A stretch of DNA of 64,000 bases. Source: Auricularia sp. M13. Its lineage: Eukaryota > Basidiomycota > Agaricomycetes > Auriculariales > Auriculariaceae. The DNA is taken from NCBI GenBank assembly GCA_037042915.1, contig CM073193.1:9238001-9302000 (forward strand), in the 5' to 3' direction. Shown here piece after piece: positions 42,189 through 55,067 of this stretch. The position numbers were made by a program, and so were the translations under genes. The notes beneath the pieces were generated by a model that worked only from the letters and a program-made list of their open reading frames with translations, had not been told where the DNA came from and made no database searches. Every line of letters begins with the position of its first letter. The first letter of the stretch is position 1.

Positions 42189-43946
42189 TCACGCCGTAGC
42201 TGTAGCCGTCTCAGCCGGTGAAGCCCCAAACCATTCAGCCTGAGTCGCGTGCGTCGACCTTCCTACCACCGTCGTCTCCTGCTGCTTCCACTTGACGAAC
42301 GACAGCCCGGCGCCGACTGACATCGATAGCGTGTCCGATCCACCGGCGGTGGGCGCGCGCGACGCCGACTGTAGATGCATGATGATCTTGCAGGAGAGGA
42401 TCGCATTGAACGAGCGTTGCGTCCTGCCCGTGCCAGTGTCCGTGAGGTCAGTGAAGACTTCCGACTCGGATGTGCTGGAAGTTACGACGAGACTTACACG
42501 GATAAGAGTACCACAAACTCCTTCTAGGGTGCCGTACGTCGACGAATCAGCGTGTGAAAAGCGGAGAAGACCAGAAGATCGTACCGGTGCGAGGAAGATG
42601 GTCACGAGGTTCCCCAGGGCAAGCGCTGGCGCGCGGCGTCAAGGAACAATTGCTCTTTCAATGGTACGTAAAAGGGCGTACCAAAGAGGAAGACGAAGTA
42701 AAGGATGCCTGTCAATGCAAATATCGCAATCAGGAATTATATTCAATAGACTTCTAGGTCTGAGCTTACCGTCGCGGTATAGCGAGGTGATCAGGTTCGA
42801 CCGTCCAAACCGGACTGCCAGTGTCAGTGGGATATTAGGTCCAAATTGCAAAGTGGGGTGCGTACAGTGCTGAATCCCAGGTATCAGGGTCAGGACGACG
42901 ATCACTGTGCGACGGGATGGGGGGACGATGAGAGCTCCGCTCAACCGGGAATATTCTATGAATGCGGGCAGCTCACCGAGATCGAACGCAGTGTGCAGGC
43001 TCCAAAAGACTCCGAGCCTGTTGGTAGAGGACGAGATCACGCAGCCCTTGAGCACCGGTAAGATGTCCGAAGCCCTAACAACTACAATCATAGCGTTAAG
43101 GAGCAATTATGGGCATGGATGAGTATCAGAGCAGGGCGCACAGACGGTGTGATCGATGTAGTACACGACGTTGACGGCGTTGGCGGCAATTATCGCCAGA
43201 AGTAAAAGCGATAACGAGATGAATATTGGCCGGCTCCCGCCCCATAAGGCCCATGTTCGCAGGATGAGAATGGCTGAATCGTCACGGATTATAATCTAGC
43301 GAATGTAAAATTATACAGATGAGGAAATTGCTCACCGCTCGTCACGACGAAGGAAAGCATCGTAGACCCTATTATTATCGCAAGTATCAGCACAAGGAGC
43401 AAGCGCACGCCGGTTCAAACGTACACGATCCGTAGGCGAGAATGTCATGGCAGAACTGCGGGCTGAGATTGACGAACTCGACTGTGCACCAAGTCCGTTA
43501 TCCAGCTGACTGTGATTCACACTCCGAATGATAATGGCTTGGGCTTACTATAGACAGTGAAAAACAGCTCCGGCCACGTTATGTACCGCGCCGTCAGGAA
43601 CAAAATCTTCCCGGCGTTCCAATTGTTCGGCCAGATAAACTCCACCTCGTCCGCGAATGTTATCAGGTGATCATACACCTGCGTAGGAAGAATTTGATGA
43701 GCTTAGGAAGCGATATTAAAGGCGTGCATACGAATACACAAGTAGCAGCGACTAAGGGGTCATCTGAATTTCACGCAATGGCGGGCGGACCATTAACGGT
43801 GCGCACCATGCATAAACTGCGCATGCCAGTTGCGTGAGAAACACCCTCAAATTAAATTGATAGTAGAGGGCAGCACGCACATACACGACATGCGCGCGCT
43901 CGAGCGACTGGATCAAGGACTGCAGCGCGCGCACCGAGTCGGTCAT
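42189..43946 (-). CDS. DUF6533 multi-pass membrane protein, copy A, 312 aa
   Basis: Thirteen exons in phase: 43946-43885, 43816-43807, 43678-43549, 43481-43425, 43368-43336, 43273-43142, 43081-42977, 42904-42866, 42814-42770, 42718-42692, 42625-42585, 42520-42498 and 42423-42189. Exon 2 is a 10-nt microexon. Exon 3 is the DUF6533 signature: VYDHLITFADEVEFIWP, NWNAGKILFLTARYITWPEL. Later exons encode further membrane helices (AILILRTWALWGG, PIFISLSLLLLAIIAANAVN, VIVVLTLIPG-type block, RSNLITSLYRDG, LYFVFLF) and a cytoplasmic tail with AILSCKIIMHLQSAS. The family is widespread in Agaricomycetes, looks like a seven-helix protein and has no established function. Intron positions are the same as in copies B and C. 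Confidence 0.9.
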
Positions 43947-46208: not shown

Positions 46209-48407
46209 TTATACCCGCAACCCGGTCGTCCCGGCCAGTGCGTACGTTTCTTCGGCTGTTCTGGCTGTGTCAGCCACTCGACGCAGGTTCAGCAGGATTC
46301 TGCACGAGAGGGTCGCGTGTATTGCACGCTGCATACTGCAGAATCAAATGATGAGTGACTCGTGGACACGCCTAGGAAGATAGACATTAAAGTTGAACGC
46401 ACACTGCCAGGAGAATGATATACGATTCCCACTGGCGGCACGAGGCTCACATGAATCTTCAGATTCCGGCAATGACTGTGGGGAAGCGCACCGAGGTTGA
46501 GTAAACGATGGTCAGGTTGGCCAGAGATACCGCTGGTGGCAGCGTCAGGATCTGCATGTCTGAAAGCCGACATCGTGGCCTACCGAACATGAAGATAAAG
46601 AAGATGACGCCTGATGGATTGTCAGCGTTCGTATTTCATGGCGCGGGGCAGAGGTTTACCGTCCCGGTACAGCGCCGTCCTGAAGTTCGATGAACCATGT
46701 TTGACTAGGGCAGCAGCTCAGCTCTTTGCGTCAGAAATATCTTATGAGAAACTGCACTTACAGTGCTGCACTCCCTTTATCAGGGTCAGCATGACAATCA
46801 CTGTTTGTCCGTGGGTCAGCGATAGTGTTAAAGCACCCTTGTGCAGGACGCGTCGACGTTGGACAACTAACCGAGCTCAAATGCTGTCCAGCTCAGCCAG
46901 GCTATTCCAACCCTCCGCGAAGTTGAGCTGAGAAAGCATGCCGGAATAGCCGTGCTGACTGTGGGAGGTGTCCTAACTGCGACATACATATGAGATGCAT
47001 CGACGAAGGCCGCTTCGTTGAATATCAACAACGCACAGACGGATTCACGAGTATAGAGCACCATATGGTACATCAAGGTCGCCGTGAGGACGAGGAGTAT
47101 GGTACAGAGCGAGAGGAATATCGATCGCCTGCCATCCCAGATGGCCCATGTGCGGACGATAAGGACCACTGTGGTGAACGGTTACACATCATTCACATGT
47201 CCCTGGGCCAGAGGAATTGAGGCGCGCTGCGCACCTTCTGAGACCGTGGTGGTCACCACGACAGACCCTGTGCAATGCGAGAAAATGAGTCAGTTGAGGC
47301 GCCCGCGCTATGCTGTACAGTGTGCAGCCTCCGGAGCCGGAGGGCCAGACACTTGTCACTGACAGATTATATAAGCAAAAATGTTGTGGCAGGTGGCGGG
47401 CTCGGTTTCGTAGAACTCCACTGCACAATCAGCGTCAGCGTCAGCTCAAAAGTGAGATTGAAGCTGTGCGGCGTGCCAGATGCCCACGCACTGTAAATGA
47501 TGACGAGAAATTCAGGCCACGCCAGATATCGCATGAGGAGGAAGAGCACTTTTCCCGCGCCCCACGGCGCTGGCCAGATGAGCGACGCCTCAGCGGAGAG
47601 CGTCATGGCGTAGTCGTAGATCTGCATTTATTCAAAGGCGCCGCAAGTCAACTTGCTTGCTTGACGTCGGAGAGACGATTGGTGCGGCGCACGAATAGCG
47701 ATACAGCGGATACTGAGGAGGCCCGCGACGTGTGTTCAGCTGAATCTTCCGCGGCTGTATCTCAATCAGCACTGAGCATACCATGGAGATACTGCAGTAG
47801 CCCAGGACATGAGCAAGCGCAGGCTAGGGTGCTGTTGAAAACTGTTTGTTAATAACGTTGTTATTAACAAAGTGTTATTAACATGTTAATAACAGAGGAC
47901 CCCAGGAGGGCCTTGTTAAAAACAGATTTGAACACATCAATTGCTGAGGCCCTGGCACATTGCAGGGACATAAATCTACTTTTGTATGAGCCTGAGTGCC
48001 TCAACATGAACTCAAGCTTGTGTTTTGTAATCTCAGAAGGTATGGAGACCTAGGCCAACGCTCTCAGCTGTGAGTGTATGATGACTAAGCACTGCTCTGA
48101 GGCTTGGCCAAGGCTCCCAAAACCATCAACATGAGGTGTGAACACCACAACAGCTTGTGGCATCTCCTTCGTGCAGTAATAGTTGACAAGAACACTTACA
48201 AAGGGTCATAATTGGGTCATTACTGACTTTCTGAGCTTCCTTTGTTATATTATGTAAGTTTGTTATTAACAGTGTTTTTAACACTGTGTTAATAACAGGT
48301 TTTGTTAAAAACATGTTAAAAACTCCCGGGGAGTTTTTAACAGCACCCTAGCGCAGGCTGTAGATGTTGCAGGGAAGAAGAAGTACGCACGTGGACGTTC
48401 CTGCCAT
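46209..48407 (-). CDS. DUF6533 multi-pass membrane protein, copy B, 263 aa, with transposon in intron 1
   Basis: Exons in phase: 48407-48391, 47791-47782, 47621-47492, 47420-47364, 47267-47235, 47168-47037, 46976-46872, 46800-46762, 46704-46660, 46610-46584, 46532-46492, 46431-46403 and 46335-46209. Exon 1 is tentative (MAGTS) but its GTGCGT donor and phase 2 match the other copies; exon 2 is the same 10-nt microexon type. Exon 3 reads IYDYAMTLSAEASLIWP, WGAGKVLFLLMRYLAWPEF. Later helices include LIVRTWAIWDGRR and SIFLSLCTILLVLTATLMYH. The C-terminal tail (QRAIHATLSCRILLNLR) is shorter than in A and C. Intron 1 is 599 nt because of a 526-bp hAT-like element; without it, it would be 65 nt. The coding frame is otherwise intact. 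Confidence 0.85.
47825..48350. mobile_element. hAT-like miniature inverted-repeat element (MITE), 526 bp
   Basis: Terminal inverted repeats TAGGGTGCTGTTGAAAAC and, at the right end, the complement of TAGGGTGCTGTTAAAAAC. An exact 8-bp direct repeat GCGCAGGC flanks it at 47817-47824 and 48351-48358, the target-site duplication length of hAT elements. The interior has repeated TGTTATTAACA/TGTTAATAACA words near both ends and a palindrome AAAACTCCCGGGGAGTTTT near 48322-48342. No transposase frame is present, so it is non-autonomous. It lies in intron 1 of DUF6533 copy B. Confidence 0.88.
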
Positions 48408-49945
48408 GTTCCACCTGCCTAACAAGAGCTGCCAGCCTTGAAGCCTGAGACGGCATGTCGAATTCCATGACTGGCATGCGGTCAAGGGGTATCCGGGATC
48501 AAAATCAACGGCACCGGGTCGGTAACCGCTGCAATGCCAGCGACCAGGAGACATATATACTATATCCGCGGATATACCTCCGAATCCGCGGATTTGCCTC
48601 CGCTTTGTTCCGCTTCCGAGGTACATCATCACCGAGATCATCTTACCAGTGACAGAAGTCAGCCAGTGTTGCAACACACCTGGCACTGCATATATCTGCA
48701 TAGCTACATGAGAATACTCAAGTATCATGTCAGAAAAGTATCGTCTGCAACTCTGAAGAGATAGATCCGCCTCAGAGCTTCCATATGCACCTGGCCGGCC
48801 TCCGGCTCCGCCGGAGCCCGAGGTCGGCAACCTCTCTAGCGCAAGCTCGGAGGAGACATACATACTAACGTGATGTACCGGATTTTGCCGATGACCACCC
48901 CTTGCATGCGGTAGCAGCATCGCGTTATATAGGCTACATAGCAGAATGCCAACATGATACAGCCTCGATGGCAGATGCATTTAGGACGAAAACTAAAGCC
49001 TAGCGACATAGTTTGGGAGGCGATGGAAGCGTGCTTCTTCCGGATTGTTAGTGGGGTGGAGCAGACAGTTGCGTTCACCGCGAATCCTATTGCAGGCGAT
49101 TCAGTCACCCGCAACCTGCTTCCGCCGGCTCCCATGGAGAGTGTTTAAGATGCACAGTAGGCGTCAGCGCGACAGAGTCGGTCCCGCGACTACAGAAGAT
49201 CATTTTCGCACGGAATCGAGCACTGGCAAGTGTTCCACGTAGGAGCGAGGGGCACAGCGCACATATTTAGTCTCCTTCGCAGACTTTATGTTCGAAAGAT
49301 AATCGTTCGAAGTGAAGCACATATGTAGATAGAGCAAGACTGCCACGGCGATACCCAACGCGGAGCATCATGGTGTGAGCGCTGTCCCCATCCAGATTCC
49401 AGATTGCACCCAGGAACACACATAGAGGGACCAACCCCGTCGTGCAGTTGCAGCCCGAGCACATCCGAGGCATCCGAGTCGGGACCGAACTTCGCGAAGA
49501 ACCAAACCAAGGCGCACGCTGTCGTCGGCCAGTTCTGCGCGTCACAACAGGGAAACAGACCCCCATCTGTCCAGGCGGCAGAGGGCATCGCAGTGATACA
49601 TAGTGGCGCCAGCGCGTGATGTCTACCGTAGAGCTTTGAACGCCAAGCACCGGCAAATTCGAACGCACGACGACAGCACGCAGCCATCGTAGCCTTGAGA
49701 AGAGCCTGCAGAAATCCCAGCGCAGAGCTCCTTCAGTCCAGCCATCAGCGAGAACGAAACGTAAAAATAAAGACGATGCGTGGCGGAGTCCAGATCTAGT
49801 CCGACGAGTCGAACTCCCACCTCGCGGCGGAGAGTTGGGAAAATATTGCTGTACAGCTAATGACGTACACCCAATGCGCATTACAACTCCATTCTATGCA
49901 TGAATTACCTTCCACTCCCCACCGACACCGACACCGACACAGGCA
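48408..49945. other. Intergenic, no confident gene
   Basis: Long minus-strand frames (48348-48980, 49267-49881) exist but show no family motif or splice chain. A short GC palindrome near 48798-48818 (GGCCTCCGGCTCCGCCGGAG) is present. Confidence 0.35.
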
Positions 49946-53194: not shown

Positions 53195-55067
53195 TCACGA
53201 CGCCCCATTCCACGCACTGCCAGACGCCCGCTGCTTTCCCAATGCCGACTCCACAACATACCCCGGGCCGCCGGCGGATTCCACGCCAGTGGGATACCTC
53301 CAAGCAACGCTCGACTGCTGGTGGTGCATCGGGATGCCCGTCGACGCGTCGCACTCCCCGGACAACGACAGCGCGGTGCGGCCCAGCGACGCCGACTGCA
53401 GATGCATGATGATCTTGCACGACAGCATCGCGGTGAACGCGCGTTGCATCCTACCGCGCCAGTCAGTCGGGTCCTCCGTGCACGGTGCACGTACGTTCCG
53501 AATAGCGCGACGTATTCGTCCTGTGCGGAGTCAGCCATTCAGCGGGTGGGAAAGAGTGGGGGTGGGGGGAATTACTTACCGGCGCGGTGTAGATGAACAT
53601 GAGGTTCGCCAGGGAGAGTGCTGCCGTAGGTTTACAGCGCGGATTGCAGTGTTAGTGTGAGAATGGGTCGCCGTGACGCGTCGGACGTGGCTTACAGAAG
53701 AGGTAGATGAAGTAGAGTATGCCTGAGAAACCATTCACGTTAGAGAAAATAAAATAAAATAAATATAAAGAGGCGCACCGTCCCGGTACAGCGAGCGTAT
53801 GAGGTTCGAAGAATGTCCCGCGCGGACTGCCATCCAGGGCCCAGCCAATCAGAAAAAAAGAAAAAAAAAAAAAAGCGATTGAATCTCAGCACGCAGCGCG
53901 CTTGGGACGCACAATGCCGAATTCCGGGAATCAACGTGAGGACGACGATCACTGCCGGGCCAGGAGATGAGCAAAGTAAAGTAACGTCTCTCCGAAGCAA
54001 TGTATAGTGAATAGAGTCTCACGCAGCTCGAACGAGGTGACCAGGATCCAGGGGACGGCGAGGCGGTCTGTCGTGGACGAGATGACGCAGCCGCGGAGCA
54101 CGGGGATCGCGTCGGACGCCGGGATCACTGCATCGTCGTGAATTGATCATGAACAAGGCGCTCAGAGTCAGACTCGCCGCAGGTCCGACGTACGGACGGT
54201 GTGGTTGATGTAGTACGCAATGTTGACGGCGTCGGCGGCCGTCACGGCGGCGAGTAACAGTACGAGCGAGATGAGGATACGCCGGCTTGCGCCCCATAGT
54301 GCCCATGTACGCAGCACAAGGATCACTAAATGAAGCCCATGGTGAGTGTCCCTCGCATCCTTGAAGTTTTGAGGGAACCGAGTCGCACGCACTCTCCGTG
54401 ACGACGATGGCAACCGTTGTAGACCCTATAATACGTTCGCGTCAGGCTACCGACTCCGACTCCGTGAGTGGGATCCAGAGATCCCACTGGCAACGCACTT
54501 ACATGTTATGTATGTAAAGACGCCACGGCACAACTTCGGACCGACATCGAAGAGCTCGACTGGGCAATGGCAATGAATGGTCAGTCCGCACTGGCAGACG
54601 AACAGAGTCATGATTCGGAAGGTGGCTGACTGACTGTAGAGCGTGAGCAGGAGCTCGGGCCACACGGTGTACCGCATAAGCAAGAACAGCACCTTCCCGG
54701 CGTGCCAGCCGGTCGGCCACACGATCGCCACCTCGTCCGCGAACGACGTCAGGTAGTCGTAGATCTGATAGTGATACGGCACGCTGAGGAGGACGGATGG
54801 AGACCCCGCTGAACTTTTGGACCTACGTATACACTGGCAGCTGACACTAGTTCAATTGGAGGGTTCAGTCGACTTGTGATGAGCATCTTGCGGACTGCCA
54901 GGCGCACCATGCATAAACTAGCAGCAGCGCCGGTCGCGACGTGAGAATTGAACACAATCCATAAGTAAGTAGCGGAGCCTAGGAGAACGAATGAATGCGG
55001 GAATCGGACGCACATACACCACATGCGCGCGCTCGAGCGACTGCAACACGGCCTGCAGGTCGGTCAT
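53195..55067 (-). CDS. DUF6533 multi-pass membrane protein, copy C, 317 aa
   Basis: Thirteen exons, all in phase: 55067-55018, 54917-54908, 54764-54635, 54559-54503, 54425-54393, 54325-54194, 54127-54023, 53951-53913, 53826-53779, 53722-53696, 53620-53580, 53520-53495 and 53450-53195. The start MTDLQAVLQSLERAHV matches copy A (IQSLERAHV). Exon 2 is the 10-nt microexon TTTATGCATG. Exon 3 reads IYDYLTSFADEVAIVWP, WHAGKVLFLLMRYTVWPEL. Later helices: MILVLRTWALWGA, RILISLVLLLAAVTAADAVN, PWILVTSFEL, LIVVLTLIPG, ILYFIYLF. The tail holds AMLSCKIIMHLQSASLGRT and a long Gly/Ser-rich end. Intron 8 contains a T-run of about 15. Function of the family is not established. Confidence 0.92.

Follow-up and report, generated by a model that had tools for sequence, protein, structure and literature searches.

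The terminal inverted repeats (TIRs) of hAT transposons begin with YARNG, and Hermes, a member of this superfamily, generates target duplications (TSDs) of 8 bp. Elements of the hAT type with short, transposase-less partners are already known in mushrooms: in Marasmius oreades a 3396-bp transposase element, MarorhAT-10, is accompanied by the 597-631-bp partners MarorhAT-4, -11 and -12 (PMC9674265). In Hermes, which comes from Musca domestica, BED fingers bind subterminal repeats, the phasing of which matters (PMC10368747), and in Pseudocercospora fijiensis a hAT element of ~9.5 kb with histone H3-like sequences has a 20-bp TIR and an 8-bp TSD (PMC6710886).

Here we analyse a 64,000-nucleotide stretch of the Auricularia sp. 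M13 genome (C1:9238001-9302000; hereafter the window), against a genome search covering 52.1 Mb in 14 contigs. Intron 1 of a DUF6533 gene in this window carries a 526-bp insertion that we classify, with a probability of roughly 0.93, as a non-autonomous hAT-type MITE. The classification rests on matching ends, an 8-bp TSD, many dispersed copies whose TSDs differ, and a relative that has these ends and encodes a transposase. The element is a further member of the group of short partners known from mushrooms. It resembles the MarorhAT system in organisation, in that both are basidiomycete hAT elements with a DUF659 transposase and transposase-less partners that share TIRs; in contrast, insertions and excisions of MarorhAT were observed and its dimerisation region was found, whereas here mobility is read from the genome and that domain was not detected in the transposase fragments searched (PMC9674265). 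With Hermes the present system shares the 8-bp TSD and subterminal repeats near both ends; Hermes has an N-terminal zinc finger, and the transposases described here have zinc-finger-like residues in their N-terminal part. The Hermes repeats, however, are short AAG(T/C) motifs, with no more than two palindromic pairs in the left end, and are mostly unaligned between the ends (PMC10368747); unlike these, the repeats described here are 9-bp words with self-complementary arms, set in the same steps of 12 and 14 bp at both ends. The Pseudocercospora family is likewise fungal with an 8-bp TSD; it shows DUF659, and no dimerisation domain was identified in it; the available portion of PMC6710886, however, makes no mention of a ladder of such words. 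A full-text literature search with the TIR letters returned no fungal-transposon paper by title.

Results

The initial annotation had described a 526-bp element with inverted ends inside an exact 8-bp duplication, and both the coordinates and the TSD were reproduced. The features are as follows.

47825..48350, forward strand: 526-bp element, very probably a non-autonomous hAT-type MITE (family A), with at least 20 full-length copies in the genome, 19 of them with a perfect 8-bp TSD
47817..47824: left TSD, GCGCAGGC, exact 8-bp duplication
48351..48358: right TSD, GCGCAGGC, exact 8-bp duplication
47825..47843, forward strand: left TIR, TAGGGTGCTGTTGAAAACT
48332..48350, reverse strand: right TIR, TAGGGTGCTGTTAAAAACT

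The two TIRs are identical at 18 of 19 positions. When TAGGGTGCTGTTNAAAACT was sought with up to three mismatches the whole window yielded two matches, which are the TIRs themselves (0.02 expected from shuffling), and all 13 strand-wise matches to TGTTAWWAACA in the window, with 0.01 expected by shuffling, lie within the element. The longest frame contained entirely in the 526 bp is 73 aa from stop to stop. The element is thus a MITE in the usual sense, being short and non-coding, with inverted ends and at least 20 similar full copies.

Those copies, which the initial annotation had suggested seeking, emerged from a genome search that gives lower bounds: at least 105 matching pieces, including at least 20 end-to-end copies of 71-100% identity, the window copy counted. 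Both ends are retained in all 20 full copies listed, and TAGGG stands at both ends of each, fitting YARNG. The 8-bp TSDs are perfect and mutually different in 19 of the 20, the TSD of the remaining copy (L010) having two mismatches. Five further copies are interrupted by later inserts (0.14-6.2 kb), and each of the five has a perfect TSD. Four family A ends without a partner were seen in the fetched stretches (two in L032, one each in L033 and L045). By alignment, the window copy shares 97.7-99.0% identity with a close group (L002-L007 and L013), and 93.9-96.2%, 83.9-86.6% or 73.0-73.6% with the remaining copies.

Several split copies and lone ends have features of their own. One family A MITE contains a 6158-bp insert (L034:904-7061; C1:9360903-9367060) with ends CAAGGGTCCCTCG, apparently flanked on both sides by GTCATTAC and bearing three frames of more than 400 aa. 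Pieces of two of these three frames gave no Pfam match over the cut-off; the insert is possibly another DNA transposon. Another family A MITE harbours a 201-bp insert (L044:398-598) with inverted ends CAGCTATGTTCATAA. At L032 (C6:53000-62500) there is a near-identical tandem repetition with a unit of ~3545 bp and a lone family A end in each unit.

The near-identity of the two ends had been taken as a sign of recent insertion, a reading that did not survive comparison with the other copies. The single mismatch sets a G at one end against an A at the other, always the same way round, in 20 of 20 full copies and in the 4350-bp relative described below. It is therefore ancestral and provides no clock for this insertion, and dating by the TIR mismatch was dropped. 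A case for recency would rest instead on a comparison with seven close copies, the window copy being one of them: the window copy departs from their majority by 5 substitutions in 526. Three of these are adjacent, at 47857-47859 (element positions 33-35), where they turn a 17-bp quasi-palindrome into the exact reverse complement of the majority. They look like one small flip, as from a hairpin or a template switch, which leaves two point changes.

At C2:4460470-4464819 lies a 4350-bp element that has the ends of the MITE and a perfect TSD, CGGTAGGC, at both sides. A 418-aa frame within it matches DUF659 (hAT-type) over the curated cut-off (E 4.8e-10). The initial annotation had suggested looking for an autonomous hAT with the same ends; a related element of this kind was found, but its interior is unlike that of the MITE. 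Similarity between the two is limited to ~100 bp per end, at 86-87%, and none was found between the MITE interior and the 4350-bp element. The view that the MITE is a direct internal-deletion product of the larger element was therefore rejected, since the ends alone match. As it shares just ~100 bp per end with the MITE, the 4350-bp element is better regarded as a cousin and a possible source of transposase than as a demonstrated direct parent. No other complete family A transposase element bearing such ends was found. A further copy of the transposase, on C8, shows 84% identity across part of the frame, and no family A ends were seen around it in the stretch examined.

The same pairing of MITEs with transposase elements recurs in a sister family (family B), marked by ends TAGGATGCTGT. 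Nine fetched family B MITEs were measured, at 475-497 bp (about 494 bp), a count to which the genome list would add further family B ends (at L040 a single end was seen); eight of the nine have perfect 8-bp TSDs and that of L041 is offset. A 1082-bp family B relative (L084) also has a perfect duplication. Family B also has three transposase elements, each 4295 bp long (L066, L067 and L068, on contigs C1 and C10). Their identity across the 3969 bp compared suggests very recent movement; the TSD is perfect in two of them and the third is without a duplication.

A related element with an RNase-H-type hAT transposase is present in both families, the family B protein matching DUF659 with an E of 2.5e-12, again over the cut-off. 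The family A and family B transposases are 57% identical across the aligned part. Residues C119, C124, H139, H140 and C144 are invariant among three transposases and have a zinc-finger-like arrangement; YDGGT and SDST are further conserved segments. Downstream, in another frame, PNSM(P/A)EERTMSA(M/L)T is conserved in families A and B; we take YDGGT, SDST and EERTMSA(M/L)T to be the segments of the hAT catalytic D, D and E. Among the family A and B transposase fragments searched against Pfam there was no match to a BED zinc finger or to the hAT dimerisation domain PF05699, the family B fragment ending before the expected end of the latter. A three-sequence profile of the N-terminal part found no related structure in the PDB, its lone match (E 0.4, a periplasmic sugar-binding protein) being taken as chance.

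Words of the form GTTNNNAAC, which the initial annotation had guessed to be transposase-binding sites, form a ladder inside each end of the window copy.

47848..47923: left ladder of five GTTNNNAAC words, proposed transposase-binding sites, with element starts at 24, 36, 50, 61 and 91
48262..48323: right ladder of five GTTNNNAAC words, proposed transposase-binding sites, with rightmost bases at 81, 69, 55, 39 and 28 from the right end

An extra match at position 10 from each end overlaps the TIR. The steps between words are 12 and 14 at both ends, the next being 11 at the left end and 16 at the right. Within the window copy the two ladders match each other as a direct repeat (44 nt, 82%). In the six of 20 family A MITEs for which positions were printed, and in the 4350-bp element, the words of the left end start at 24, 36, 50, 61 and 90-91, and those of the right end have their rightmost bases 80-81, 68-69, 54-55, 39 and 28 from that end. 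The corresponding positions in family B (four of nine MITEs printed) are 25, 37, 51, 62 and 93 on the left and 81, 69, 55 and 39 on the right; a right-end word at 28 occurs there in the transposase element only. Each element has 9 to 12 words, with self-complementary arms and three variable core bases. In 1000 trials with base-shuffled ends A-, B- and AAA-type words reached a maximum of 1 or 2, whereas the observed counts of the types present were 3 to 8.

The cores differ between the families. In family A, AAT/ATT makes up 8 of the 11 words of the transposase element and 121 of the 237 words of the 20 MITEs; the corresponding counts are 0 of 10 and 0 of 81 in family B, where TAA/TTA accounts for 5 of 10 words in the transposase element and 33 of 81 in the MITEs. 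The core switch is only partial, as a B-type core is found in 7 of 237 family A words and AAA/TTT is common in both families. That families A and B have these words in corresponding positions, with cores that are in part family-specific, is what the comparison of these sequences adds to the systems described previously.

Conservation of alignment columns was counted in six subfamily representatives chosen by eye. Invariant columns numbered 38/38 in the TIRs, 60/60 in the word arms and 29/30 in the cores, compared with 38/65 in the spacers and 148/333 in the interior (Fisher test for arms plus cores, p 2.5e-11 versus spacers and 2.9e-25 versus interior); over all 20 copies the respective counts were 36/38, 53/60, 24/30, 30/65 and 116/333. 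In its interior, one of the two transposase elements has a single GTTNNNAAC word and the other has none. Conservation of the words while the spacers drifted is, judged from these alignments, the pattern expected from selection for mobilisation, and it strengthens the proposal that the words are probably transposase-binding sites.

With respect to target choice, we saw no avoidance of open frames: 10 of the 20 sites fall within one of at least 150 aa, compared with 53% of 640 control positions. A central pyrimidine-purine step occurs in 19 of 25 family A TSDs (background 0.257, p 2e-7; L010 omitted) and in 6 of 11 family B TSDs (p 0.04; the offset L041 and the TSD-less element omitted), a step that was picked post hoc among all seven and is to be read as a lead only. 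Likewise post hoc, 15 of 20 family A sites were seen to have a G six bases left of the TSD.

The host gene lies on the reverse strand and was read as follows; 3' of exon 4 it was inspected by eye only.

48391..48477, reverse strand: exon 1, predicted from the first in-frame ATG and with reference to paralogs, ending in phase 0
47792..48390, reverse strand: intron 1, 599 nt, carrying the element, with a GTGCGT donor and a GCAG acceptor
47782..47791, reverse strand: exon 2, predicted 10-nt microexon, TATCTCCATG
47693..47712, reverse strand: exon 3, predicted, 20 nt
47520..47621, reverse strand: exon 4 (starting at 47621), part encoding the DUF6533 domain (PF20151; an 85-aa piece matched at E 2e-11)

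Exons 1-4 join in frame to ...GRNVHYLHVSAVSLFIYDYAMTLSAEASLIW..., continuing into the DUF6533 domain. Removal of the element and one TSD from intron 1 leaves 65 nt, as had been claimed, and introns 2 and 3 of the gene are 69 and 71 nt. Paralogs at 18 loci, read by eye, bear this layout out, as the DUF6533 exon is often preceded by a first exon, a 10-nt exon and a 20-nt exon. Intron 1 measures 55-96 nt in the six paralogs clear enough for measurement, in one of which (L051) no GT follows the 10-nt stretch. The earlier statement that the splice phases still fit holds with the 10-nt and 20-nt exons together. A reading in which the phase fails, with the 10-nt exon alone, was dropped, as the 20-nt exon evident in the paralogs restores the frame. 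The DUF6533 family has 49 matches in the genome, and two more of its genes lie on the same strand of the window, at 43577-43678 and 54663-54764.

Discussion

It could be argued that the element belongs to another superfamily with 8-bp TSDs, such as Zisupton/KDZ or a P-like group, and merely resembles a hAT. Duplications of this length are indeed not exclusive to hAT elements, that of Zisupton being 8 bp (PMC12730594), and Pfam did not detect the hAT dimerisation domain in the transposase fragments searched. The transposases of both families, however, match DUF659 over the cut-off, a domain placed among hAT transposases (PMC3985635), and the TAGGG ends fit the hAT end pattern, making assignment elsewhere very improbable. 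A more serious alternative concerns the source of transposase within the hAT assignment. The ends of the window copy differ by 12-14% from those of the 4350-bp element over ~100 bp and the interiors are unrelated; the close MITEs are 97.7-99.0% identical to the window copy, yet a single complete family A transposase element was found, the C8 copy having no such ends in the stretch examined. A lost or unseen closer autonomous relative may mobilise the MITE, with the 4350-bp element unable to act on it. That the TIRs are nearly identical in the MITE and the 4350-bp element, with the words at the same positions in both, tells against such a relative, and we regard this alternative as a substantial possibility that falls somewhat short of even odds.

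The function of the words is open to a similar argument. Their self-complementary arms could form hairpins, and the case for binding is drawn from sequence comparison, so that they might owe their conservation to replication, hairpin formation or common descent alone. It should be emphasized, however, that in the same copies the spacers and interior diverged while the arms of the six representatives did not, and that the words are nearly confined to the ends of the two transposase elements; a cause other than binding therefore appears unlikely, and we continue to regard the words as probable transposase-binding sites. More tentatively, and with the balance leaning somewhat against so specific a scheme, they may be operators of 9 bp, about five per end, arranged in a ladder of fixed register and all in the same direction, so that their spacing alone could distinguish left from right. 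The register would have been kept while the core shifted with the transposases (AAT/ATT in family A, TAA/TTA in family B, AAA shared), each MITE following its own family. A search limited to published papers listed none on a fixed-register ladder in hAT elements.

In the mechanism we propose, the GTTNNNAAC words near either end were bound by a transposase encoded by the 4350-bp family A element or by an unseen relative, the N-terminal zinc-finger-like segment of the protein being the probable point of contact. The transposase would then have paired the ends, cut the element out and reinserted it at an 8-bp staggered cut, host repair of which would have generated the duplication. The insertion would have stretched a 65-nt intron to 599 nt, leaving the predicted coding sequence intact. 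The gene probably still splices, perhaps at lower efficiency because a 10-nt exon follows intron 1.

This locus offers a clean fungal case in which a MITE and a transposase element occur in one genome, and do so twice. With the paired families A and B it would become possible to test what subterminal repeats and their phasing contribute to hAT transposition. As the insertion lies upstream of 10-nt and 20-nt exons, it is also a natural test of the influence of intron length on the splicing of tiny exons, the introns measured in this gene family being otherwise shorter than 100 nt.
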